Origin: Candidatus Parepulonipiscium sp. PG-Nuni2H_MBin01
GTDB lineage: Bacteria > Bacillota > Clostridia > Lachnospirales > Cellulosilyticaceae
Direction of reading: 5' to 3'
Assembly (NCBI GenBank): GCA_001994995.1
Contig: MDJM01000002.1
Location: forward strand, 1-55,142
Length of the DNA: 55,142 nt
The translations under genes and the position numbers were made by a program. Under the pieces are notes generated by a model, which saw only the letters and a list, made by a program, of their open reading frames with translations, ran no database searches and was not told where the DNA came from. This document shows, in pieces, positions 12,706 to 49,122 of this stretch. How positions within the stretch are numbered: position 1 is the stretch's first letter; every line of letters starts with the position of its first letter.

Positions 12706-12729
12706 CCTCACTTGACGTGAGGTTATTTT
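12703..12729. terminator. Convergent terminator between Sel1 genes
   Basis: TAACCTCAC (12703-12711) pairs with GTGAGGTTA (12717-12725) around a 5-base loop, followed by TTTT. The arms contain the stop codons of both convergent genes. Confidence 0.75.
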
Positions 12730-15700
12730 AATAACTTAAGCTGTCTCTGCGCCGAACCATTGCCTCTAGCCGCTGCCTGCCTAAAATGCTCCACAGCTAG
12801 CGAAGGATTTTTTGCAACGCCATTACCGTAATAATAGCATAAACCTAAGTAATACTGCGCCGCCACATTGCGCTGATTGACAGCATTATTAAACCACCAC
12901 ACAGCCACATTGTAATCCTGCTTCACACCTTCGCCGTTATAATAACAAAGCCCCAGATAATACTGCGCAGAGCTGTTACCATGCTTAGCAGCTTTACTAA
13001 ACCAGCCAATAGCCTCGTCAAAATTCTGCTCCACACCTTCGCCGTTATAATAACAAAGCCCCAAATTAAACTGCGCCGGCGCATAATCTAGCTGCGCGGC
13101 CTGCCTATGCCATAAAACAGCAGTCTCAAAATTTCTTTCCACCCCATCGCCCGTATAATAACATACGCCTAATATATACTGCGCCTCAGCATGGTTGCCA
13201 CCAGCCGCCATCTCATACCAACTTATAGCGCGCGTAATATCTCGCTCCACCATCACGCCTATATCATAACAAAGCCCCAAGTTAAACTGCGCATCCGCAC
13301 TGCCTTTAGCCGCCGCTCTGTTAAACCAAATTATCGCCTGCCCCAGATTTTGCGCACCGCCTTCTCCGTTGCAATAACATAGCCCTAAATAATATTGCGC
13401 CTCGGTTTTACCTTGCACCGCAGCCTCTCTAAAATACTCCTTAGCCACCACACAGTCATGCGCGACATGAACGCCGTTATAATGCCACAAACCTAGCGTA
13501 TACTGCGCCGAAGCATCTCCACACTGCGCCGCCAGCTTATACCACTTAGCCGACTCATATTGCTCACCAAGCTTATAATAACAAATCCCAAGACTTTTCC
13601 TAGCCTTAGTCACGCCGTATTCAACAGCCTGCTCAAACCACTTAGCCGCTTCCTCATAACTTCCTTCCTTATAATAAGGCTGCGCCACAAACTCATAGCA
13701 TATGCCAGCCTTAACTAAAGCTTTCGGATTACTCTCGGTCTGAGAATACCACTTAGCCGCCGTCTCAAACAACTCCTGAGTATAATAAAAATCACCCAAA
13801 TTATAAAAACATAAATCCGCCTTAGCACCAGCTTCATCATTACCAAGCTTAGATGCTCTCTTATAAAACGTTGCCGCTTCTTCATATTCATGACTATCAT
13901 AAAACTGCTCCGCTAAATTAAAACAACATAGCCCAAGCTTATACCTAGCCTGCGCATGACCTTGGTCAGATAGCGGTTTAAAATACTCAATTGCAGCCTT
14001 AAAATCATTATCATTAAAACACGCCTCGCCAAGTTCAAAAAAATACCCACTTAAATGCTCCTTAGCATCTGAGTTACCTTGCGCCGCAGCCTGCCTATAT
14101 AGCGACATAGACATTTCATAACTAATCTCAACACCACGCCCCTTAGCATAACACTCCGCAAGCTGACACTGCGCCCTCGCAAGACCCGCATTAGCCGCCT
14201 TCTTAAACCACTCAACCGCCTGCGAATAATCAAGCTCCACGCCGTCGCCAGAATAATACATATCACCAATATTACACTGCGCATTAGCATTACCACTCTC
14301 AGCCGCTAATTCATACCACTTAGCCGCCTGCTCAAAATCCTGATTAACCCCTTGCGCATTATCGTAACATACGCCAATGCAAAACTGCGCATCCGAATGC
14401 CCAAGCTCTGCTGCTGACTTATACCACTTAGCAGCCTGCTCCAAATTTTGCTTAGTGCCTATCCCTTCCTTATACCAATTGCCCAAAATAAACTGCGCAC
14501 CAATATGGCCATTTTTGGCCGCGCGCGAATACCATAAAAAAGCCTCCTCATAGTTTTGCCTAACATCAACTCCTCTTTCATAATACTCACCCAACATAAA
14601 CTGCGCACCCATATGATTAGAATCAGCAGCACGCTCAAACCACACCTTAGCCGCCGCCTTATCCTCAGTTACACCATCTCCATCAAAATAGCATAAGCCC
14701 AAGTTATACCTAGCGTCCGCGCTACCTTTTTTAGCCGCGCGATTAAACCATGTAACAGCCTCCGAATGATTTAACTTCACACCTTTACCATACTTATGAC
14801 ACTCACCCATCTGATTAAGCGCCTCCACATTGCCGTGCTCAATAGCTTTAAATAGCCACTCAATAGCTTTAAATTGGTTACCTTTCTTGCCGTTAACAAA
14901 ATTACAAGCAATATTATAATAACATAAACCAACCCTGCTATGAGCGTCTTTATGACCTTGCGCCGCTGCGTAACTATACCATATAGAAGCTTGCTCGTAA
15001 TCTTGCTCTACATCTTTACCTGTAAAATACCAATCGCCAACATTATAATATAGCGCATTTAAACTCCTAGCCGCATATACATTGCCCTGCTCAGAAGCAA
15101 GCTCAAACCAACCAACTGCCGACTTATAATCACGCTTTACTCCAACCCCTTTAGCGTAACATAGCCCCAAGTTATAGTAACATAAACCTAAGCTTTCGCG
15201 CGCCGTTGGATGCCCGTGCTCTGCCGCCTCCTTAAAACATACTATAGCAAGCTCGTAACTACGCTCCACACCGTCGCCATTGTAATGACATTTGCCCAAA
15301 TAATTAAGCGCATCCAAGTGCCCTTTCTCAGACGCAGCGTCAAATAGCCTAATAGCCACTTCATAATTTTGCTTAATGCCGTCCCCATCATAGTAACATT
15401 TGCCAAGCTCATACTGCGCCTCCATATATCCCTGATTTGATGCGCGGCTAAACCAGTCCACTGCCTTAGTCGGATTTTCTCTAACTCCAATCCCATCTCT
15501 ATAAAACGTACCCATCATAAACTGTGCCTCGATATGACCTTGCGCTGCCGCTTTAGCCATATGTACTTGTGCCAGCATATTATTTTGATCCACGCCGTCT
15601 CCTCTGTAGAAACATTTGCCAAGCTCAAATTGCGCATCCTTTTGCCCAAGCTCCGCCGCTCGCTCAAACCAATACACCGCCCGAGTTATATCCTGCTGTG

Positions 15701-15794
15701 TACCATCACCCATATAGTGACACATCCCTACTTGATACTGTGCATCTGCATTTCCATGTTTCGCTTGTGAAAATAAGTCTTTATAGTTACTCAT
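12723..15794 (-). CDS. Giant Sel1-repeat protein (1023 residues)
   Basis: Almost the whole 1023-residue chain is Sel1-like repeats, close to 27-28 units of 36 residues, with the core AQYxLGLCYYxGDGV followed by AxxWFxxAAxxG. Repeats in residues about 590-740 are degenerate and interrupted (FELGEACFNDNDFKAAIEYF region), with more TPR-like spacing. There is no signal peptide or membrane segment, so a cytoplasmic superhelical scaffold is expected. ATG 15794 is preceded by GGAGGG on the minus strand. The gene is convergent with the shorter Sel1 genes. Repeats near the C-terminus are the most alike, suggesting recent internal duplication. Regulatory or adaptor roles are known for the family; the partner here is unknown. 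Confidence 0.9.
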   Translation of the reverse strand: MSNYKDLFSQAKHGNADAQYQVGMCHYMGDGTQQDITRAVYWFERAAELGQKDAQFELGKCFYRGDGVDQNNMLAQVHMAKAAAQGHIEAQFMMGTFYRDGIGVRENPTKAVDWFSRASNQGYMEAQYELGKCYYDGDGIKQNYEVAIRLFDAASEKGHLDALNYLGKCHYNGDGVERSYELAIVCFKEAAEHGHPTARESLGLCYYNLGLCYAKGVGVKRDYKSAVGWFELASEQGNVYAARSLNALYYNVGDWYFTGKDVEQDYEQASIWYSYAAAQGHKDAHSRVGLCYYNIACNFVNGKKGNQFKAIEWLFKAIEHGNVEALNQMGECHKYGKGVKLNHSEAVTWFNRAAKKGSADARYNLGLCYFDGDGVTEDKAAAKVWFERAADSNHMGAQFMLGEYYERGVDVRQNYEEAFLWYSRAAKNGHIGAQFILGNWYKEGIGTKQNLEQAAKWYKSAAELGHSDAQFCIGVCYDNAQGVNQDFEQAAKWYELAAESGNANAQCNIGDMYYSGDGVELDYSQAVEWFKKAANAGLARAQCQLAECYAKGRGVEISYEMSMSLYRQAAAQGNSDAKEHLSGYFFELGEACFNDNDFKAAIEYFKPLSDQGHAQARYKLGLCCFNLAEQFYDSHEYEEAATFYKRASKLGNDEAGAKADLCFYNLGDFYYTQELFETAAKWYSQTESNPKALVKAGICYEFVAQPYYKEGSYEEAAKWFEQAVEYGVTKARKSLGICYYKLGEQYESAKWYKLAAQCGDASAQYTLGLWHYNGVHVAHDCVVAKEYFREAAVQGKTEAQYYLGLCYCNGEGGAQNLGQAIIWFNRAAAKGSADAQFNLGLCYDIGVMVERDITRAISWYEMAAGGNHAEAQYILGVCYYTGDGVERNFETAVLWHRQAAQLDYAPAQFNLGLCYYNGEGVEQNFDEAIGWFSKAAKHGNSSAQYYLGLCYYNGEGVKQDYNVAVWWFNNAVNQRNVAAQYYLGLCYYYGNGVAKNPSLAVEHFRQAAARGNGSAQRQLKLLK

Positions 15795-15896: not shown

Positions 15897-16307
15897 TTAT
15901 TCTTGTGCTTCCGCTAATGCTCTTGCTTTAGCTGCACAGCACGCTTTAATTTCAGTTTGTTCTTGTTCTACTATCTCAATAATTTCTTCGATTTCAATAA
16001 TCTCTTCTTCAATAATCTCTTCTTCAATAATCTCTTCTTCAATAATTTCTTCTTCAATAATTTCTTCTTCAATAATTTCTTCTATAATTTCAATTTCTTC
16101 TTCAATAATTTCTTCTTCAATAATTTCGATTTCTTCAATTTCTTCAATAATCTCATAAGCTAACTGTTCTACAACAGGCTCTGCTACTACTAGCTCTATA
16201 ACAGGTTCAGCCACAGGTTCAACCACCGCTACTGGTTCTTCTTCTTTAGATGAACATGCGCTTAGCATTGTTGCTGCAAGTATTGTAATTACTATTTTTT
16301 TATTCAT
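15897..16307 (-). CDS. Small lipoprotein with Glu/Ile-rich repeat region
   Basis: A 136-residue product with a signal peptide ending in the lipobox LSAC (residues 15-18), so it should be lipid-anchored outside the membrane. From about residue 50 to 112 it consists mostly of IIEEE units, then a tail with a CC pair (IKACCAAKA). The repeat could form a highly charged helix or extended rod and might bind cations; this is inference. I recognise no family. A consensus promoter precedes it, closely resembling the promoter of the nitrogenase-like operon whose last gene ends 67 bases upstream. That suggests shared regulation. Slippage in the repeat would change its length in frame when whole codons are gained or lost. 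Confidence 0.75.
   Translation of the reverse strand: MNKKIVITILAATMLSACSSKEEEPVAVVEPVAEPVIELVVAEPVVEQLAYEIIEEIEEIEIIEEEIIEEEIEIIEEIIEEEIIEEEIIEEEIIEEEIIEEEIIEIEEIIEIVEQEQTEIKACCAAKARALAEAQE
15967..16152 (-). repeat. Short tandem repeat array inside the lipoprotein gene
   Basis: On the plus strand the pattern TTCTTCTTCAATAATTT/CTC recurs about every 15 bases with near-perfect identity, encoding the IIEEE units. The period is a multiple of three, so copy-number change keeps the frame. Confidence 0.85.
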
Positions 16308-16373: not shown

Positions 16374-17420
16374 TTAATCTTGTAGCAAAATATCTTGTGA
16401 TAAAATATCTTCTAGTACTATATCTTCTACTAATATATCAATTAACGAATTTATGCTATCTACAATTTGGATGCCTGCACTTACGATATAACTTGACGTT
16501 AGCGCCACCTCATTGCCTTGCTTAACCGGAACAACCTCATTCCACACCAACGGATTTGAATCCTTTGCATCTTGCGCCATCTGAGCCGCCTCTTCTAACG
16601 TTGCCGCTCCTGAAGTTAAGAAGAATATCTTATCCATATCTATTCCTACTATTTCCTCCAAATTCAAAATCCCTGTCATCCCATGCGCAATATACTCAGC
16701 CTCGTCATCAGTCGCAAAAACATCCGTCCAGCCAAGCATACTCAACATCGTGCCTATCGTTCCATTTGGCCCTTGCAAGTAATAGTCTGTCGCGCTTGCA
16801 ACAGATAATGCTACATACGTCTTATCTTCAAACAGCGGTTTAACCTCGTCAATTCGCTCCTCAAGCTGCGCAAATGTATCCATTATCTCATCCGCTTTAA
16901 TCTTAGCTTCATCTGTAACAGCAAACGCCTGTGTAAGCACTTCAGTCTGGTGCTTCATATATTCGTATACATTCATCTGGCCAGTAGTATCGCTCATACC
17001 TATTCCATACACAGGTATTCCCGCGTCCTTTAACGTTTGGCCATGCACAGACATAGCAGTTGCGGCGATAATTACTAAATCCGGCTCCATCGCTACAATT
17101 AACTCCACATCATAGTTACTGCTATTAACGCTTGGCACCACAATAGCATCTAAATCTTCTGGATACGTCATAGTAGTAGTGACTGGCACTGCAATTAAAT
17201 TTGCCCCCATTTCATATATCGTCCTAACTGGATAAGTACTTAGCGCCACAATCTTTTGAGGCATCTCATCTAAGTAAATATCATCATACCCTTCCACCCC
17301 TTGTAAATCATGTGTATGTTGTAGTACAAACCCTTGGTATTCATTGTCCTCAGATGCTACAGTTGCAAACGCAGGACAAAGTGTACATGCTGCTAAAGTT
17401 AATGCAAAAAATTTTTTCAT
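16374..17420 (-). CDS. Metal-complex/corrinoid-type ABC transporter substrate-binding protein
   Basis: A 348-residue extracytoplasmic binding protein of the class III (BtuF/FepB/FhuD, PF01497-like) fold: KIVALSTYPVRTIYEMGA opening, EPDLVIIAATAMS, a long connecting helix near residues 165-195, and a second lobe with GTIGTMLSMLGWTDVF. Such proteins deliver siderophores, haem or corrinoids to FecCD-type permeases. The signal sequence contains LAAC at residues 9-12, but the hydrophobic part before it is short, so it may instead be cleaved after PAFA. The last 20 or so residues are a repetitive acidic tail (DILVEDIVLEDIL...), probably from local repeat growth. It is the last gene of the nitrogenase-like operon, 2 bases after the NifK-like gene. 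The ligand is unknown. Confidence 0.85.
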   Translation of the reverse strand: MKKFFALTLAACTLCPAFATVASEDNEYQGFVLQHTHDLQGVEGYDDIYLDEMPQKIVALSTYPVRTIYEMGANLIAVPVTTTMTYPEDLDAIVVPSVNSSNYDVELIVAMEPDLVIIAATAMSVHGQTLKDAGIPVYGIGMSDTTGQMNVYEYMKHQTEVLTQAFAVTDEAKIKADEIMDTFAQLEERIDEVKPLFEDKTYVALSVASATDYYLQGPNGTIGTMLSMLGWTDVFATDDEAEYIAHGMTGILNLEEIVGIDMDKIFFLTSGAATLEEAAQMAQDAKDSNPLVWNEVVPVKQGNEVALTSSYIVSAGIQIVDSINSLIDILVEDIVLEDILSQDILLQD

Positions 17421-17422
17421 AA

Positions 17423-18634
17423 TTATAACCCCCTTAAATACTCATCATAAACTTCTCTAATCATATCCGCTCCTCTAACACCCACAATAGGCATATGAGT
17501 CGCCACCTGGCTTTTATATACAGTCGGTGCATTTACACACATCGTTGTATTAGTTTTATTAACTACCATACCAGAAACTTCATCCGCTAAAATAAACGTA
17601 TAATCCAAACTCTCCAAAGCTTTTATCCTATCAGACTCATTATTAAAATATACAATCTCATCATCTACATTATCTATCATGCTAATCGTATGTAAACAAA
17701 TCTTCATAACAACATGCGCTCCAAGGCTCTGCATCATAGAGCACAGACCCACAACTCTATCATAGTCGCCAACTACCGCCACTTTAGGCGAAACCTTTAA
17801 CATACGCTTATACATCTGATAATGCCCCGACTCCATAATCTTTTTATCAAGCAGAGGCATAAGTGGCTCTTTTCCTAATACATTGCCAATCTCCATAAGC
17901 CATGATTTTGTCTGCGCATAACCGTATGGCACCCCATATACGTAAGGCGTGTTAAACTTTTGCTTTAAATACTTAGCAGCTTGTAGGCCGTCTGCACTAA
18001 CAACCAAATTTATAGTAGCACTACTCATATGCTCAATTTCACAAATGCTAGTTTCACAACATAGCGCAGTCCCAAGCGTCATATTAAACGCATCTTCAAC
18101 AAGCGAAACAATTTCATTCTTATCACTAACAGCTCTAAAGTTGCCAACAGATAGGCCAATTAAATTAAACGTATTTAATCGTTCATCACTCGGCAAAACA
18201 AGCTCGCTTATCTTCTTATACGCAAAAGAAACACCAACGCTATAATCACCTCTAAAACCGCCCACATCACAAGCTATTAACTTAGCGTTTATCTGCTGTT
18301 GCATATACTTACATACGCCTTTTATATCTGTACCTATCACTTCCGAAGTAGATGAAGCTACTACAAAAATAACCTTTGGGCTAAAACTTTCATCCAACTC
18401 GATAATAGAATTTTCAAGCCTCGATACATCGCCCATTATTACATCATCTTCAGTCATATGCGTAGTGAAAATCTGCTCACGCTGTTCAATACCAAGCTTA
18501 CCTAAAAAACCCATACTATAATGAGTAGTGCCGGCTGGGCCATATTCTAATATGATACTCTGCTTAACCGACAACAAACTCCACAACAATCCCATTCTAT
18601 CCGATGGCGTTGGCAAATATCTACATAGCCCCAT
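17423..18634 (-). CDS. Nitrogenase-like component 1 subunit (NifK/BchB-like)
   Basis: A 403-residue member of the nitrogenase component 1 / DPOR family (NifD, NifK, NifE, NifN, BchN, BchB). Recognisable blocks are EYGPAGTTHYSMG (30-42) in place of HGxxGC, SSTSEVIGTDIKGV (94-107) in place of TTCxxEVIGDD, and DVGGFRGDYSVG. Cysteines normally found at the second and third positions are absent; only Cys4 near the N-terminus could be a cluster ligand. This asymmetry recalls DPOR, where one subunit gives three Cys ligands and the other a different residue. The gene begins immediately after the NifD-like stop (TAG-ATG). No NifB, NifE or NifN is present, so it is not a nitrogen-fixing nitrogenase; the substrate is unknown. 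Confidence 0.85.
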   Translation of the reverse strand: MGLCRYLPTPSDRMGLLWSLLSVKQSIILEYGPAGTTHYSMGFLGKLGIEQREQIFTTHMTEDDVIMGDVSRLENSIIELDESFSPKVIFVVASSTSEVIGTDIKGVCKYMQQQINAKLIACDVGGFRGDYSVGVSFAYKKISELVLPSDERLNTFNLIGLSVGNFRAVSDKNEIVSLVEDAFNMTLGTALCCETSICEIEHMSSATINLVVSADGLQAAKYLKQKFNTPYVYGVPYGYAQTKSWLMEIGNVLGKEPLMPLLDKKIMESGHYQMYKRMLKVSPKVAVVGDYDRVVGLCSMMQSLGAHVVMKICLHTISMIDNVDDEIVYFNNESDRIKALESLDYTFILADEVSGMVVNKTNTTMCVNAPTVYKSQVATHMPIVGVRGADMIREVYDEYLRGL

Positions 18635-19933
18635 CTACATCACCCCTTTCATATTAGCCCTAAACTCAATCGACTGCTTAGCTCCATTAACTAATGCATT
18701 AACAATAAACTCAGCAGCATCAAATCCTAGCATACTATTAGCCATATCCGTATGCACAAGAGCAATGCCTTTAGCTTGCAACCTAGCAGCATATTCATGG
18801 CCTAAATATAAATTAGGCTGTAGCTCATCGTATATATATTGTAGAGGAGTAATGTTGGCCGATTTAGTTACAAAAGGATTAGCAAGCTTAAGCAGTTCAT
18901 CTTTCCACACTAAATCTCTATCTAAAATTCTAGCCATTTGGATTAACAACGGCTTCATTCCAAGCTTAACCATAAAAAGATTAATTTCAAACGGCAAAAA
19001 AGGCGTATGGCCATAAATGTAACTAACTCCATTAAGCTTATCCAAAGCGTCATTTATAATAGCATCCACACGGTAATAACTATCCATAACAGACTGAGGT
19101 AGCGGTATTTGTAAATAATCAAACAAAGCATTATAACTGCTTAAAATATTATCAATATCAAAAAAGCGCTCAAAGCTAACGTATGGAACTCCAAACTGCT
19201 GTTGCATAAGCTTAGCAAGTGGCAGCGCAGTTTCATTAACAACAATATTAACGCGTGCGCTAGGCGCTTTAACAATATCATCCACATCGCAACCAGATGG
19301 AAGCATAACGCCAATCTCCACACCACAATCATTAAGCACTGTGTAAAGCTCCGTAGTATTAAAATTGCCTAACCTTTGGCCTAAAATATTAACACTACCG
19401 CCCATCTGCTGTGGCTTCATCATTTGAAAACATGCACTAATAGTCCTCTCGATGCCAGGAATATGGTCTTGGCATTTAAAATGCTCCGTATGAACAGCCA
19501 TAACTGGCAAATTATATTTATCACAAAGCGCCGCAGCTACACTATCCATATCATCACCAATAATCTCAATAACACATGTAGTAACCAAAAATACACAAGC
19601 TGGATTATACTCACAAATCATCTCATCAAATGCAAGCTCCGTAGATTCACAGCTACCAAACGTTACGTCATGAGTATCTACAATAACAGAAACACACCTG
19701 CCTTTAATGCCGCCAAAATCCTTGCTCATAGCTAAAGACTTAGTATAATAAGCGCACTCATCAGTGCCAATAACCATAATCATAGCATCTCTAATACCCT
19801 TAGCAACTAAAGCCGCACCCATTAGAGGGCAGTGACTGCCAGGAAATAGCGTATGAGTCAGCTGGGTTACATCTTTAATACAACTAACTTGATCAAGTCT
19901 CTTAAGTCGCTTAATAATTTTTTTACCGTCCAT
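18635..19933 (-). CDS. Nitrogenase-like component 1 subunit (NifD/BchN-like)
   Basis: A 432-residue component 1 subunit, shorter than NifD (about 480-500). Three cysteines fall where the family binds its bridging iron-sulfur cluster: Cys35 in FPGSHCPLMGA, Cys60 in GTDECAYY and Cys120 in TTCVIEIIGDDMD. The last matches the TxCxxxxIGDD signature closely. I see no clear counterpart of the FeMo-cofactor Cys/His ligands, but this needs an alignment. It should pair with the NifK-like protein and receive electrons from the NifH-like ATPase. It is the fourth gene of the operon, 9 bases after the ABC ATPase gene and abutting the NifK-like gene. Confidence 0.88.
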   Translation of the reverse strand: MDGKKIIKRLKRLDQVSCIKDVTQLTHTLFPGSHCPLMGAALVAKGIRDAMIMVIGTDECAYYTKSLAMSKDFGGIKGRCVSVIVDTHDVTFGSCESTELAFDEMICEYNPACVFLVTTCVIEIIGDDMDSVAAALCDKYNLPVMAVHTEHFKCQDHIPGIERTISACFQMMKPQQMGGSVNILGQRLGNFNTTELYTVLNDCGVEIGVMLPSGCDVDDIVKAPSARVNIVVNETALPLAKLMQQQFGVPYVSFERFFDIDNILSSYNALFDYLQIPLPQSVMDSYYRVDAIINDALDKLNGVSYIYGHTPFLPFEINLFMVKLGMKPLLIQMARILDRDLVWKDELLKLANPFVTKSANITPLQYIYDELQPNLYLGHEYAARLQAKGIALVHTDMANSMLGFDAAEFIVNALVNGAKQSIEFRANMKGVM

Positions 19934-19942
19934 ATAATCTCC

Positions 19943-20719
19943 TTAAATTTCATCATAAACAATAATAGGATTTTCCCTACCTTCCAAAAATACAATATTA
20001 CACGACACACCGTAAACATCCTGCATCATCGTTGGGGTTACAACATCCTTAGGCGCACCTTCATCATACTTTACACCATCCTTAAGAATAACAATTCTAT
20101 CACTAACCTCAAGCGCATGGCTTAAATCATGAAGCACCATAACAATGCCAATGCCAGACTCCCTATTTAGGCGCTTAACGAGGCGCATAGTTTCTAGCTG
20201 ATACGCAACATCTAAATAAGTAGTAGGTTCATCCAAAAACATAATCTCGGGCTTTTGAGCTAATACAGTGGCAATCCAAACGCGCTGAGCCTGACCACCA
20301 GAGCAAGTTTGGATAGACTTATTTTGCAAATCCAAAACACCCGCCTGCTCCATAGCCCACTGAACAATCTCCTTATCTTCATCAGAACTACCTTTAAACC
20401 ACTTTTGATACGGCATACGGCCGAAGCTAACCAAATCCTTCACTTTAAAATCTGGAGGAGCTTGATGGCGCTGAGGTAATACACCCATCTTCTTAGCAAG
20501 CTCCTTACTATCAATCTTCCTAATTTCAGTATCATCCACACAAATAGAACCAACCTTATAATCAAGAAGCCTAGTTAAAGCTTTTAAAACAGTCGATTTG
20601 CCAGAACCGTTAGGGCCAATAATAGTAGTAATCTCGCCCTTTCTAACCTCAATATCAATACCATCAACAACAATATTCTCACCATATGCAATCTGGACAT
20701 TACTTCCTTCAACTATCAT
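19943..20719 (-). CDS. FecE/BtuD-type ABC transporter ATP-binding protein
   Basis: A 258-residue ATPase for iron-siderophore, haem or cobalamin import: Walker A GPNGSGKST (35-43), Q-loop in MGVLPQRHQ, signature CSGGQAQRVWIA, Walker B IMFLDEPTTYLD and switch VLHDLSHALE. The AxRY-like features and length fit the FhuC/BtuD class rather than export ATPases. It is 9 bases from the permease gene upstream and 9 from the NifD-like gene downstream, so the importer and the reductase are expressed together. An aspartate-rich C-terminal region (EGRENPIIVYDEI) is typical of the class. Confidence 0.92.
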   Translation of the reverse strand: MIVEGSNVQIAYGENIVVDGIDIEVRKGEITTIIGPNGSGKSTVLKALTRLLDYKVGSICVDDTEIRKIDSKELAKKMGVLPQRHQAPPDFKVKDLVSFGRMPYQKWFKGSSDEDKEIVQWAMEQAGVLDLQNKSIQTCSGGQAQRVWIATVLAQKPEIMFLDEPTTYLDVAYQLETMRLVKRLNRESGIGIVMVLHDLSHALEVSDRIVILKDGVKYDEGAPKDVVTPTMMQDVYGVSCNIVFLEGRENPIIVYDEI

Positions 20720-20728
20720 AAATTCCTC

Positions 20729-21751
20729 CTATCCGCCATAAACTTTTCCCTTTTTCTTTAACATATATAAGAAGAAAGGACCACCAACTAGAGCCATAAC
20801 AATCCCAACAGGAACCTCCATCCCAGGGATAATAGTTCTACCTACAGTATCCGCCACAAGAACAACTAGCGCGCCCATTAACGTACAAACTGGAAGAAGA
20901 GCCTTGTAATCAGAACCAATAACAAGCCTAGAAATATGAGGAACAATAAGCCCTACAAACCCAACCATACCAACAACCGTAACAGTAGCAGCAGCTAAAA
21001 AGGCTGAAACAGCAGATAATAAAATACGGCTTTTAGTAACGTTAACGCCTAAGCTTTTAGCCATATCCTCGCCTAATAAAAGCAAATTGGCGGTTTTAAT
21101 GCAACAAAAAGCTAAAACTAACCCGACACTACCATACGCCGCAGCTATGTATACTTGAGACCACGACCTTCCAGATAAGCTACCATTCATAAAAGCTAAT
21201 ACGCTAGATAAATCATCAGAATGTAGCAACTGTAAAAATGAATTGTAAGCACCTAAAACGCTATTAATGGCAACACCAGATAAAATGATTCTAATGGCCG
21301 ATATACCGCCATCGTAAGCCATAATAAAAATGAGTACACAAGCGAGCGCCGCACCTGCAAATGCAAATAGAGGAACCGAAGCGCTAAGATGTGGGAATAG
21401 TAGCAAAATGGTAATGGCAGCAGTTCCAGCACCTGCGGAAACTCCGATGCTGCCAGGGTCGGCTAGTGGATTGCCCATAACAGACTGAAGCAGCGCGCCA
21501 GCAATCGATAGAGCAGCGCCAACAAGAAGCGCTAATAAAACGCGCGGTAATCTTAGATGAGTAACAACAACTTTAATGGTGCTATGCTCATCTGAAATTA
21601 ATGCATCGATAATCTCCTTAGGCGAATATCCAGCACTACCAATGCCAAGCGCCACAATCGACATAATGGCGATTGCAACAACAAGCATTAGGCATACACA
21701 AGTAACTCTGCCAAAGCTGTCTTTTTTATAGTTTTTCTTATTAGTTATCAT
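20729..21751 (-). CDS. FecCD/BtuC-family ABC transporter permease
   Basis: A 340-residue permease with about nine to ten membrane helices. The family block [19 protein letters not shown], then [16 protein letters not shown], and [13 protein letters not shown], the cytoplasmic coupling segment, identify it as FecCD. As a single permease gene it probably forms a homodimer. Its start overlaps the NifH-like stop by 4 bases (ATGA), the strongest single sign that transport and the nitrogenase-like reductase belong to one system. FecCD importers handle iron complexes, haem and corrinoids; which one applies here cannot be read. Confidence 0.93.
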
Positions 21752-22524
21752 ATGTAATCTCCTATAATATCCTCGCTATTTGCAACAATCTGATTAGCTA
21801 GCTCCAAATAAACAGATTGCATCATAGAAGTTGAATCCAAAAATTCAAAAACAGTACCGCCCCTATGCTCAGCAGTTTGGATTTCTGGCGAACGTGGTAT
21901 GTAGTTTATTATAGTTGTCCCAATTTCGTCGCATGCCTTTTCAACAATTTGGCGCTCATCTTCAATATTTTTAGCATTTAAAATAATCCCTCGTAAAGAA
22001 GCATAACCGCGTTTACCAAAGTTAGAGATAGCAGACGCAATATTAGTGGCTGCATATAACGCCATCATCTCGCCCGATGAGACTATAAAAACATCTTTAG
22101 CATAGCCTCCTCTAATGGGCATGGCAAAGCCTCCGCATACCACATCGCCTAAAACATCGTATATTACTATATCTGGTTTATATTCTTCAAACGCTCGTAA
22201 TTCTTCTAATTTTTCAAATGCAGAAATAATCCCACGACCTGCGCAGCCTATGCCAGGAGTCGGTCCCCCCGATTCTACGCAAAGCACACCTTTATAGCCT
22301 TCGTATACAATGTCTTGTAAGCCAAGTTCATCGCCTTTTAGCTTAAGTTGATTTAATACAGTAGGGATATGTTTACCGCCCATTAAGTTTTTAACGGAAT
22401 CGGCCTTTGGGTCGCACCCTATTTGCATAACTCTATAGCCTTGCGTTGCTAGCGCTGCTGATAGATTAGAAGTTGTTGTTGACTTGCCTATTCCGCCTTT
22501 TCCATATATCGCTATTCGTTTCAT
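21748..22524 (-). CDS. NifH/BchL-like iron-sulfur ATPase
   Basis: A 258-residue homologue of nitrogenase iron protein, which hydrolyses ATP to pass low-potential electrons to its component 1 partner. It shows the P-loop GKGGIGKST (8-16), GCDPKADS (36-43), the cluster-bridging cysteines Cys94 in GIGCAGRGI and Cys130 in [12 protein letters not shown], and switch II DVLGD. Both cluster ligands are intact, so a [4Fe-4S] bridging dimer is expected. It is shorter than NifH (about 270-290). It is the first gene of the six-gene operon, behind a consensus promoter at 22568-22596. Its neighbours place it with group IV-type nitrogenase-like systems rather than nif, bch/chl or cfb. Confidence 0.92.
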
Positions 22525-22710: not shown

Positions 22711-24651
22711 ATGATAAACTATTATGATGATAAAAAAGATTTAGAACTAGTAGGAAGCGAAGGCCGAACCGTAGCAATATATGGAGCTGGGAAATTTATA
22801 CCTTATGGATTTAAAGACATATTACCGCGAGCAGATTACTTTATAGATAGAAATGCCGATGCTATAAAGCAAATAAACAACACGCCAGTAGTTACAATTG
22901 AACAATTTCAGAATATGAAATTCAAGGGGGGGGGCGTGGACTTCGTGATTACTGCTAGTGGTGAAGCAAGTCAAAATGAAATCGTAAAATTACTTATACA
23001 ATTATATAAATCAGCAGCAATAAATATATTTTGTCTTATACCTAGTACTATGCGCCCCAATCAATACTTAGCAACAATCCCAGAATATATAGAAGCTTTA
23101 AGAGACGGCTATAACCATATCCCCGAAGCAAAAGATAAGCAATATATAGCTGATACAGTGAATATGCTGCTTAACCCTATTGTAAGAGAAGATAGAATTG
23201 AATTTAGTGACCATACTAGTAAATATTTTAACTCATCAAACGGTATTAGAGAAACTGTTAAAGCACAACAGTTTTATAAAAATAAAATATATATGTTTGG
23301 TAACTCATGTACCGTCTCGGTGTATAACGAAGATAAAGAAACAATCAGCAGTCATTTACAACACTTACTAGATATAAATAATTACTCATTTGAAGTTGAT
23401 AATTATGGAATATATTGTGTTAATAGGAATCAGCTGTATAATTTACAAAAAACTTTAGAGCGAGTTAATATAAAACAAAATGATATTGTATTTTTCATGC
23501 ACAATATAAATATGTATTCTCAGGATAAGGATAAAGTGTTGTATAGCGTATCGTGGCTAAAAGATATACAGCAATATTGTTTGGATAGAGGATGTAAATT
23601 TTATATAATAAAGTTCCCTAGGTTAGTGGATAGAAAAGTGTTAACTGAGTTAGAAGAAATAATTATAAGACAGTGGCCTGCTGCAAAGTTAACATTATCT
23701 GACGATAAGAAAGCATATCAGAAGGCAGAGGTAGCACATCCAAAAGATAAGGAACTAGAAAATCTATTGTATACAGCCACTAAAATAAATAATATCCCAT
23801 ACTTCGATTTTGAATATTTAATAAATGAAAAATATCCGCATGAAAGCTTCTTTGTAGACGAAGCCCACTTTCACTCAAGGGCCAACAAACGAATAGCAAC
23901 CGAAATATACGAAATACTACAGCTAAGTTTTAAACTGCAACAAACACAACAAGCGGCACAGCAATACTTTGCAAAAGAAGAGCGCGAATTTAAAAGTTTT
24001 ATATTAACAAAATACCATGAAAACGAATGGATGAGCTACATTAAACAGCTAAAAGAAGCATACCCACAAACAAAACAAACAGCAGCAGCAGCTATAGTAG
24101 TAAACTGCAATCCATTTACAAATGGGCACAAATACTTAATAGAAACAGCCGCGCAACAAACGGAAAAGCTATACGTATTTGTAGTAGAAGAAGATAAATC
24201 AGTCTACACATTTAAAGAACGATATAGCCTAGTAAAACAAAATTTAGCGCATCTAAAAAACGTAACAATTTTACCAAGCGGCAAATTTATAATATCGCAA
24301 ATCACATTCGCCGAATATTTTAACAAAGACGATGCCCCAACAATAGATGTAGCAAACGATTTAACTATATTTGCAAAAGAAATAGCTCCAGTACTAAACA
24401 TTACAAAACGCTTCGTAGGCGAGGAGCCGTATTGTCAAGTTACTAACGCCTACAATTTAAAAATGAAAGAAATACTACCCCAATATGGAATAGAATTAAT
24501 CGAAATCCTACGCCAAACAGTTGATGGGCATATAATTAGCGCGTCTAATGTACGCGAATGTATTAAAACGCACAATTATGAATTATTGCAAAAGCTAGTC
24601 CCTACGGCTACCCTAGATTTTCTATCCCAAAAACATAATTTTAAAAATTAA
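22711..24651 (+). CDS. Three-module protein: Rossmann-like, SGNH-like and CitC-type nucleotidyltransferase
   Basis: A 646-residue multidomain protein. Residues 18-110 look like a nucleotide-binding fold (VAIYGAGKFIPYGF, DFVITASG). Residues about 190-405 resemble an SGNH hydrolase: MFGNSCT with a candidate Ser, and VDEAHFHSRANKRIA with the Asp-x-x-His style C-terminal motif. Residues 460-640 match citrate lyase ligase (CitC) C-terminal domains: VNCNPFTNGHKYLIE, VVEEDKSVYTFKERYSLVK, RFVGEEPYCQVTNAYN and ISASNVRE. No citrate lyase genes are near, so acetylating citrate lyase is unlikely; adenylyl or acyl transfer onto another carrier or glycan is possible. ATG 22711 with AAAGGG upstream is preferred over GTG 22660. 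A nine-G tract lies early in the gene. The nitrogenase-like operon is divergent from it. Confidence 0.75.
   Translation: MINYYDDKKDLELVGSEGRTVAIYGAGKFIPYGFKDILPRADYFIDRNADAIKQINNTPVVTIEQFQNMKFKGGGVDFVITASGEASQNEIVKLLIQLYKSAAINIFCLIPSTMRPNQYLATIPEYIEALRDGYNHIPEAKDKQYIADTVNMLLNPIVREDRIEFSDHTSKYFNSSNGIRETVKAQQFYKNKIYMFGNSCTVSVYNEDKETISSHLQHLLDINNYSFEVDNYGIYCVNRNQLYNLQKTLERVNIKQNDIVFFMHNINMYSQDKDKVLYSVSWLKDIQQYCLDRGCKFYIIKFPRLVDRKVLTELEEIIIRQWPAAKLTLSDDKKAYQKAEVAHPKDKELENLLYTATKINNIPYFDFEYLINEKYPHESFFVDEAHFHSRANKRIATEIYEILQLSFKLQQTQQAAQQYFAKEEREFKSFILTKYHENEWMSYIKQLKEAYPQTKQTAAAAIVVNCNPFTNGHKYLIETAAQQTEKLYVFVVEEDKSVYTFKERYSLVKQNLAHLKNVTILPSGKFIISQITFAEYFNKDDAPTIDVANDLTIFAKEIAPVLNITKRFVGEEPYCQVTNAYNLKMKEILPQYGIELIEILRQTVDGHIISASNVRECIKTHNYELLQKLVPTATLDFLSQKHNFKN
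22926..22934 (+). repeat. Nine-G homopolymer inside the CitC-fusion gene
   Basis: Codons 72-75 (Lys-Gly-Gly-Gly) are written as an uninterrupted run of nine G. In AT-rich DNA this is unusual and is a slippage-prone site; a one-base change would truncate the protein soon after residue 75. Confidence 0.9.
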
Positions 24652-46729: not shown

Positions 46730-47908
46730 ATGGAAACTATAGAGTTTAGAAAGTTCACTATAAAGAAAGGTTATATAGAAACTACTGTTACTACTTCAAA
46801 GTTCTTAACCAAACAAAAAGATATTATTAAATTTGGTCTTAATAAAAAGATAATTCCTAATAGTGATTTAATTGCAGTAGCGCTATCTACTTTATGTGGA
46901 ACACAATATAAAAATATTTATATGGATTTGCTTGTTAGCACAGAAGCTTTAGAAGGGATTAAAAAGTTTACTCAAGCAAATGTAACAGTAAAAGGCGAAA
47001 ATTTATCACCGCCAACTTATAAAAATGGGACTAATAATATAATATTAAATTTTAGTGGAGGATTTGATAGCCTAGCTGCGTTATGTATAATGCCAGATAA
47101 TACTAAACTAGTGTCTATTGACTTTGGGCACTGGTTTACACGAGAAAAAGAGATATTTTCAAAATTTGCACCGTATACTGTTAAAACAAATTTTAGACAA
47201 TTAAAGTACGATAGAGCCTCATGGACATTTATGGGTGCAGGTGCAATCCTATACAGTGAATACCTAGGAGCGGGATATCAAGTTTTTGGAACTAATTTAG
47301 AATCAACACCTTGGAACTATATAAGCCCAGATAGAATTAATAAATCTGTTTTGGTGCCACCTTTTTCTATAGCTAATATTAAAGATATAAAATATATACA
47401 AGGATTAGCCCTACCTAGTATCATAATGATTATTTCCCGTTATAGGCCTGACTTACTAAATGAGTCATTAAAATCTTTAAGCGAGCCAGGTACAGAGAAG
47501 CGTTATAGGAAAGAAATAGTAGCTAAATTTATCTGTAAAAAATATAATAGAAATGTTTTTATAGAATCTACAGAACCTCCTAAACAAAAGGTGAAGTTTG
47601 GATCTTATTTAACAGCTGATTTTATAACATTATATCAATTAAAATATTTGGGCAAAGAGGTGACTGAACGGACTATATGCGATATTCCTAAAGATGTTGA
47701 GGATGTAGTCAGTAAACTTAAACTAGCTTTTTATGAAAAAATAAATACTAATTTCTTGGAAACTATTCCGTGTCAATATAAAGATGAATTTCATGCTAAA
47801 TTAGCTAATGCCGATGTATACCCTTATAATGAGCAAGACTGGGAAGAATTTAGAGAAGTAATTAAATTATTATCAAAATACCACACTAGTATAACAAATG
47901 TGATTTAA
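46730..47908 (+). CDS. PP-loop ATPase-like protein, copy 1
   Basis: A 392-residue protein with LNFSGGFDSLAAL near residue 106, the SGGxDS PP-loop of ATP pyrophosphatases (QueC, asparagine synthetase, N-acetyl sugar amidotransferases), followed by SIDFGHWF. These enzymes activate a carbonyl by adenylation. No glutaminase domain is present and I cannot name the substrate. Its position among glycosyltransferases suggests sugar modification, such as amidation. A paralogue follows directly, with an almost identical central segment. GAGAGAGG precedes ATG 46730. Confidence 0.7.
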   Translation: METIEFRKFTIKKGYIETTVTTSKFLTKQKDIIKFGLNKKIIPNSDLIAVALSTLCGTQYKNIYMDLLVSTEALEGIKKFTQANVTVKGENLSPPTYKNGTNNIILNFSGGFDSLAALCIMPDNTKLVSIDFGHWFTREKEIFSKFAPYTVKTNFRQLKYDRASWTFMGAGAILYSEYLGAGYQVFGTNLESTPWNYISPDRINKSVLVPPFSIANIKDIKYIQGLALPSIIMIISRYRPDLLNESLKSLSEPGTEKRYRKEIVAKFICKKYNRNVFIESTEPPKQKVKFGSYLTADFITLYQLKYLGKEVTERTICDIPKDVEDVVSKLKLAFYEKINTNFLETIPCQYKDEFHAKLANADVYPYNEQDWEEFREVIKLLSKYHTSITNVI

Positions 47909-47958
47909 ATATAAGTCACATTTGAATAGAATTAATTATAAACTTGGAGGCAGCATAT

Positions 47959-49122
47959 ATGCTTGAATTTAGAAATTTTGTTATTAACCCCGGATATTTT
48001 TCTACACAGATAATTACTTCAGATAAATCAGATACTATAGAGTTTGAATTAAGTGAAAAGTTCATTCCAAATAATGATTTAATTGCAGTAGCCCTATCTA
48101 CTTTATGCGGAACACAATATAAAAATATTTATATGGATTTGCTTGTTAGCACAGAAGCTTTAGAAGGAATTAAAAAGTTTACTCAAGCAAATGTAACAGT
48201 AAAAGGCGAAAATTTATCACCGCCAACTTATAAAAATAGAACTAATAATATAATATTAAATTTTAGTGGAGGATTTGATAGCTTAGCCGCGTTATGTATA
48301 ATGCCAGATAATACTAAACTAGTGTCTATTGACTTTGGTCATTGGTTTATAGCAGAGCAAAAATTTTTTGCAAAATTTGCTCCCTATACCGTTAAGACTA
48401 ACTTTAGACAATTAAAGTACGATAAAGCCTCATGGACATTTAAGGGAATTGCTTCAATATTATATAGTGAACACTTGGGAGGGGGGCTAAATACCTTTGG
48501 AACTATTTTAGAAGCTACGCCTTATAATTTTATTAGTTATCAAAGAATAAATAAAACTGGAATAGTACAGCCTTTTAATTTAGTAGGATTAACAGATGTA
48601 AAATTTACGCATGGGTTAACTGAAGTAGGCACTGCTATGGTTTTATCCCACTATAAGCCAGAATTGATAAATGATTCATTACAATCTTTAAGTAAACCGG
48701 GGTCTGAGAAACGATATCGTAAGCAGCTATTAACTAGCATTGTCAGTAAAAAATTTAATAAAAATATTTTTATTGAATTAACTGATAAACCTATATCTCA
48801 AGTCGATTTTGGTACTAACTTTGCCTTAGATTTTCTAGCGTTATATGAGCTAAAACATGTATCGTTATCAGAAGTGAATGCAACTGTAATAAATATTCCA
48901 CAAGAAGTTATTGCTCTAGTAAATAGATTATCTTTAAATTTTTATGAAAAACTAAATACTAATTTTTTAGATGGAGTACCAAAAGGCTACAGAGCAGAAT
49001 TTTTAGCTAAGTTATCATGTGCTAAAATTTATCCTTATAATGAACAAGATTGGCAAGAATATAGAGAAGTAATTTTATTATTAAGTAAGTATCATGAAAA
49101 TTTAGCAAAAATAATCCAGTAG
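47959..49122 (+). CDS. PP-loop ATPase-like protein, copy 2
   Basis: A 387-residue paralogue of the preceding gene, with the same SGGFDS loop. Residues covering LIAVALSTLCGTQYKN through SIDFGHWF (about 110 residues) are nearly identical to copy 1, while both flanks have diverged strongly. The frame is open to TTG 47944, but GGAGG (47946-47950) precedes ATG 47959. A hairpin AAATGTGA / TCACATTT (47896-47923) spans the copy 1 stop. The two products might form a heterodimer; that is inference. Confidence 0.7.
   Translation: MLEFRNFVINPGYFSTQIITSDKSDTIEFELSEKFIPNNDLIAVALSTLCGTQYKNIYMDLLVSTEALEGIKKFTQANVTVKGENLSPPTYKNRTNNIILNFSGGFDSLAALCIMPDNTKLVSIDFGHWFIAEQKFFAKFAPYTVKTNFRQLKYDKASWTFKGIASILYSEHLGGGLNTFGTILEATPYNFISYQRINKTGIVQPFNLVGLTDVKFTHGLTEVGTAMVLSHYKPELINDSLQSLSKPGSEKRYRKQLLTSIVSKKFNKNIFIELTDKPISQVDFGTNFALDFLALYELKHVSLSEVNATVINIPQEVIALVNRLSLNFYEKLNTNFLDGVPKGYRAEFLAKLSCAKIYPYNEQDWQEYREVILLLSKYHENLAKIIQ

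Follow-up and report, generated by a model that had tools for sequence, protein, structure and literature searches.

Background

CitC, the citrate lyase ligase (PF08218 / TIGR00124), acylates a thiol by using ATP and acetate. A gene in the window, by which we mean the whole stretch of 55,142 nucleotides that was analysed, encodes a protein which shares with CitC the C-terminal nucleotidyltransferase domain with the full CitC motif set. Unlike CitC, however, this protein has an SGNH domain and a variable N-terminal module in place of the GNAT half, it is not found with citDEF, and its relatives form a separate clade that is glycan-linked and often tract-bearing. SGNH carbohydrate acyltransferases and esterases (AlgX/AlgJ, PatB, DltD and acetylxylan esterases; PMC9487903) have in common with the fusion the SGNH fold, the block I nucleophile, the block V His and a link to carbohydrate decoration. 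The fusion differs from them in being apparently cytosolic, in having mostly Cys as the nucleophile, and in carrying its own ATP-using activation domain instead of depending on a membrane partner or carrier. The closest solved fold for amino acids 128-404 of the window protein is that of CgnD (8a2n; 14% identity), a slow hydrolase of the crocagin pathway which cleaves a peptide leader and has no CitC domain (PMC10070186). The logic that we propose for the fusion is comparable to DltA and DltD in one chain. In the Dlt logic an acyl adenylate is converted to an enzyme thioester or ester and then passed to a glycan, and the fusion would be a one-protein counterpart.

The best-known contingency genes with poly-G or poly-C tracts are those of Campylobacter, Helicobacter and Neisseria. 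Cj1295 of Campylobacter, a homopolymer-bearing flagellin-glycan gene (PMC3068675), resembles the fusion genes in its homopolymer and in the surface-glycan-modifying product that we propose for them, although the fusion is a different enzyme and occurs in Bacillota, including Selenomonadaceae and the Epulonipiscium family. A literature search, with most subscription journals outside its reach, found no earlier description of an SGNH-CitC fusion and, within the same incomplete coverage, no prior description of homopolymer phase variation in these taxa. Homopolymers and phase variation are not mentioned in the paper on polyploid Epulopiscium (PMC8245194).

Results and discussion

Architecture of the fusion protein

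The gene starts with ATG at 22711 and stops at 24651 with no internal stops in the ORF reading of the window, which agrees with the coordinates of a preliminary description made from the letters of the sequence. The 646-aa protein, in which no signal peptide is apparent, begins with a part that varies between relatives, followed by an SGNH fold (aa ~128-404) and then by a CitC-type nucleotidyltransferase (aa ~459-641). The features are as follows.

22711..24651, + strand: SGNH-CitC fusion gene, ORF of 646 aa; relatives with 24-43% identity, full-length matches
22711..23085, + strand: N-terminal module, possibly Rossmann/PglD-like (IYGAGKF motif); from motif and low-confidence models
22926..22934, + strand: G9 homopolymer, in frame (ON); only run of at least 9 G or C in the genome; truncation computed
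23092..23922, + strand: SGNH-fold domain, aa ~128-404; CgnD 8a2n Z 23.3, 7tog Z 16.3
23299..23307, + strand: SGNH block I, G197-N198-S199, with position 199 limited to Ser or Cys across the family
23857..23868, + strand: SGNH block V, D383-x-x-H386; aligned column His 42/42, Asp 30/42
24085..24633, + strand: CitC-type nucleotidyltransferase domain, aa ~459-641; PF08218 E 7e-66, PPAT/CoaD fold Z 18.6
24109..24129, + strand: NPFTNGH (TxGH, HIGH-type) ATP-site motif; from motif alignment
24535..24555, + strand: ISASNVR, second nucleotidyltransferase signature; from motif alignment

SGNH-CitC fusions are present across many gut, rumen and termite bacteria; with the window protein as a single-protein query, the genome-contig and viral-contig scans returned no close relatives. 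We used an alignment of 42 fusion relatives as input for an AlphaFold2 model, and confidence is good in its middle and C-terminal regions. In structural comparison, the middle region matches CgnD (8a2n) with Z 23.3 over 243 residues and the acetylxylan esterase 7tog with Z 16.3, and the SGNH fold suspected earlier is thus present in the predicted structure. Since CgnD serves the crocagin pathway as a slow hydrolase, the 8a2n match shows fold and not function. At the level of Pfam, Lipase_GDSL_2 is marginal in the window protein (E 0.024, 15.6 bits against a family cut-off of 32.9); no Pfam SGNH model is over its cut-off there, and L063 is below the cut-off too.

The putative catalytic residues are S199, D383 and H386. 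The nucleophile column of block I contains Ser in 14 and Cys in 28 of the 42 aligned sequences and nothing else, and in a second set, which overlaps partly with this alignment, the same position is Cys in 45 and Ser in 16 of 61 sequences, again with nothing else. The oxyanion-hole residues, i.e. the block II Gly and the block III Asn, vary in the fusion alignment, and neither the block III Asn nor the block V Asp is strictly conserved across fusions.

The N-terminus has a pLDDT of about 50 in two structure predictions, and the only hints of a Rossmann fold are the IYGAG motif and strands and helices that alternate in part. The preliminary description had read the N-terminal ~400 residues as Rossmann-like plus SGNH; the SGNH part of this reading, like the CitC assignment, holds, whereas neither of the two low-confidence models confirms the Rossmann-like part. 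Among fusion relatives the N-terminal parts vary and include ILEI (several members), CBS, FrhB/ferredoxin and epimerase modules.

Comparison with citrate lyase ligase

The citrate-lyase-ligase motifs noticed earlier at the C-terminus correspond to a PF08218 match at aa 460-638 (E 7e-66) that is far above chance, with related nucleotidyltransferase models weaker in Pfam, and this part of the predicted structure superposes on PPAT/CoaD with Z 18.6. The full CitC motif set is retained (NCNPFTxGH, SGxFIIS, TFPxYFxK, FVGEEP and ISASxVR), and the TxGH motif, NPFTNGH, which contains the NGHK of the preliminary description, is conserved through the fusion family. No CoaD or TagD model matches the window protein over its cut-off. 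The NCBIfam model TIGR00124 gives 206 bits against an equivalog cut-off of 262 and is matched at model positions 123-331 only; the GNAT-type N-terminal half is missing from the window protein and the SGNH fold stands in its place.

The CitC domains of the fusions form one clade with support 99/99, apart from the GNAT-CitC proteins; three rows labelled 'classic' within this clade are apparently cut or truncated fusions. In agreement with the earlier remark that citD/E/F/G/X are not nearby, the window lacks cit genes, and CitF is absent from the assembly of this genome. CitF was not found in seven fusion genomes (this one and six others), and in Selenomonadaceae its matches are weak and partial only. 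The relatives G007 and G017 have a separate, ordinary citC-citF locus away from the fusion. Because the GNAT half is missing, CitF is absent from the genome and the fusions form a separate clade, we conclude, on the evidence of sequence, that the window protein is not a citrate lyase ligase.

Gene neighbourhoods

We compared the neighbours of the gene in 86 loci, 63 with a fusion and 23 with a CitC without SGNH. A citE/F neighbour was found in 0/63 fusion loci and in 16/23 of the others, and a glycan-synthesis neighbour in 22/63 and 1/23, respectively. The latter ratio is indicative and not exact, because some of the glycan query genes came from fusion loci in other genomes and the flanks of 6 controls have a different length. 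About two thirds of the fusion loci have no tested glycan gene within about 4 kb. The settings include a nonulosonic-acid-type locus (NeuA/B/C-type, with CMP-sugar genes; G531), a CDP-glycerol/TagD-type locus (G060), an RmlA/RmlB/DegT locus and, in the Epulonipiscium genus, a setting with CysD, CysN-C, an NKWYS capsule protein and FkbM methyltransferases. The window gene itself is outside any glycan operon, and the nearest glycan locus begins 13.6 kb downstream. Within that locus, on the + strand at 46730-47908 and 47944-49122, are adjacent paralogues with an SGGFDS PP-loop-like motif, the first of which has no Pfam match.

The G9 tract in the window gene

The 2.70-Mb assembly has only one run of at least 9 G or C, the G9 at 22926-22934, which the preliminary description overlooked. 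About 0.8 such runs are expected in 2.7 Mb, a value extrapolated from a Markov model and itself resting on one event in 60 simulations, and hence the G9 is not rare genome-wide. The chance that the one such run of the genome lands in the 1.9-kb fusion gene is about 7 in 10,000. The tract carries weight because of its location in the fusion gene and the tracts in relatives, and not because of genome-wide rarity. By computation, a tract longer or shorter by 1 or 2 G would yield a protein of just 78-82 aa. In this assembly the reading frame is intact across the tract, and switching of the gene by it is predicted. The relatives G007 and G017 have the fusion gene without a tract.

Tracts and frameshifts across the family

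A G or C run of at least 8 occurs in 13/33 fusion genes compared to 0.53 expected (maximum 4 in 2000 draws), the expectation being drawn from neighbouring DNA of the same assemblies, and in 0/8 CitC controls of the same set. The tracts are located in the N-terminal part, in the SGNH-CitC linker or just upstream of the gene. Among the best 80 named loci, tracts of at least 8 were found in 11/66 fusion matches, Ruminococcus and Treponema records among them, a count that partly repeats genes of the 13/33 set.

Nine fusion genes are frameshifted at the tract, with the family match on both sides of it, and about 15 are in frame. The shifted genes are G011 copy 2 (tract G13), G014 (G10), G547 copy 2 (C9), G500 (G11), G563 (C7), L171 (C9), L174 (C8), L176 (C8) and L177 (C7). 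In one Selenomonadaceae genus, a homologous Pro-Pro-Pro linker site is off with C7 and C8 and mostly on with C9 (a comparison between species), and in other species the site is interrupted as CCGCCGCC. Past the shift, dN/dS in the CitC domain is 0.06-0.13, which indicates purifying selection and suggests that the shifted genes are not obviously decaying; between two shifted genes the values are 0.094 and 0.082. A recent shift in a conserved gene could yield equal dN/dS. Taken together, the fusion genes look like contingency genes in their sequences.

The pair L177/L167 has dS 0.37 in the CitC domain versus 2.5 in the SGNH domain, and the pair L176/L169 has 0.70 versus 1.8. In both pairs the CitC domains are much closer than the SGNH domains, which hints that modules recombine between fusion genes. 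Some broken copies (a G575 copy, L170 and L158) have lesions away from the tract. By eye, the upstream G11 of G005 resembles a promoter spacer (TTGACA, 15 bases, TAAAAT). With 15 bases the spacing is below the 16-18 range of the promoter scan, which for this reason gave no match there, and we set the promoter reading aside.

Further tracts were seen elsewhere. In the Selenomonadaceae fusions L084, L157, L164 and L154 a C9 (once C23-24) sits at the gene's 3' end, just past the CitC domain. At L049 3039-3052 (G014), a second NKWYS-type capsule gene has a G14 ahead of its remaining ORF, so that in this genus the fusion shares the presence of a tract with at least one other surface gene. A stretch of 53 G at G007:C1:461763-461815, in an Epulonipiscium genome, lies in the ORF of a large surface-type protein (poly-Gly) and may be an assembly fault.

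Proposed function and alternative explanations

The architecture of the family, its independence of citrate lyase, its glycan linkage and its contingency signature are well supported. Our best reading, to which we assign a probability of about one half, is that the fusion is an acyl transferase of the cytosol which is driven by ATP, acts on surface-glycan precursors and is phase-variable, where the acyl chemistry, the acceptor and the switching of the window gene are the parts that we infer. The CitC-type domain would use ATP to convert a small carboxylic acid, perhaps acetate, to an acyl adenylate. The SGNH domain of the same chain would then accept the acyl group on its Ser/Cys nucleophile and place it onto a hydroxyl of a sugar nucleotide, a lipid-linked glycan precursor or a similar acceptor, with the N-terminal module helping to choose the acceptor. 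That CitC acylates a thiol, and that a Cys/Ser nucleophile is fused to a CitC domain here, suggests such an internal acyl relay. Slipped-strand changes in the poly-G/C tract would turn the gene on and off as in a contingency locus. The acyl activation and transfer put forward in the preliminary description is in line with the CitC motifs that are kept and with the Cys/Ser nucleophile, the chemistry itself being conjectural; its SGNH fold and glycan context are upheld, its Rossmann module is unproven, and the homopolymer phase variation of the family was missed in it.

Alternatively, the CitC-type domain could be a CoaD/TagD-like nucleotidyltransferase that makes an NDP- or AMP-activated alcohol or phosphate, with the SGNH domain acting as a hydrolase on the same glycan substituent in remodelling. 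The PPAT/CoaD fold, the CDP-glycerol genes near the G060 relative, the CMP-sugar genes near the G531 relative and the fact that SGNH domains are commonly esterases (PMC9487903) are all consistent with it. However, the whole CitC motif set is kept while CoaD/TagD models are not over their cut-offs, and the nucleophile position is mostly Cys, which is better for an acyl relay than for hydrolysis; we consider this explanation rather unlikely. Far less probable, and largely refuted, is the idea that the protein acts as a citrate lyase ligase, or that it is related to one and moonlights by acetylating an acyl carrier protein. The PF08218 (E 7e-66) and TIGR00124 (206 bits) matches would agree with this, but the cut-off of 262 is unreached, the GNAT half is absent and the clade is separate; with CitF absent from the assembly and citE/F near 0/63 fusion loci, a pairing of the fusion gene with citrate lyase was dropped.

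The tracts and split ORFs might also be assembly errors or decaying pseudogenes, considering that homopolymers are error-prone, that several loci are from MAGs and that some copies have other lesions (G575, L158, L170). Against this, the enrichment (13/33 versus 0.53) is relative to adjacent DNA from the very same assemblies, the tracts are mostly 7-11 bases long, which is within short-read accuracy, the nine shifted genes match the family on either side of the tract, and dN/dS downstream is low, also between two shifted genes (0.094, 0.082). We judge this explanation improbable.

Returning to the acyl transferase, the stronger statement that it is an ATP-powered counterpart of the Dlt logic in one protein, in which CitC loads the SGNH Cys/Ser for cytosolic acylation of glycan precursors, and which is switched across several gut lineages by poly-G/C tracts, many of them located where a slip would sever the activating domain from the transferring domain, is plausible but put forward tentatively. 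The G9 here and similar tracts in many relatives suggest that gut bacteria switch a surface-sugar-modifying enzyme on and off at random. The tracts in a new enzyme family of Selenomonadaceae and of the family of the giant Epulonipiscium symbionts suggest that common gut bacteria vary their surface sugars in the manner of the known contingency systems. The reading also gives a group of proteins that are widespread, and that annotation probably calls citrate lyase ligases, a function which can be put to the test.

Other observations in the window

Upstream of the fusion gene, on the opposite strand, we noticed the following.

16374-22524, - strand: a NifH-like protein, two nitrogenase-component-1-like proteins (PF00148) and an apparent BtuCDF-type ABC transporter/binding protein
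15897-16307, - strand: a short ORF of lipoprotein-like sequence in which Glu and Ile form a long repeat (EEIIEEE)
12723-15794, - strand: a 1023-aa protein of nearly all Sel1-like repeats, adjoined by smaller relatives

In the first of these clusters, a nitrogenase-like reductase seems to go together with an importer for a metal or cofactor, the transporter being assigned by reading.
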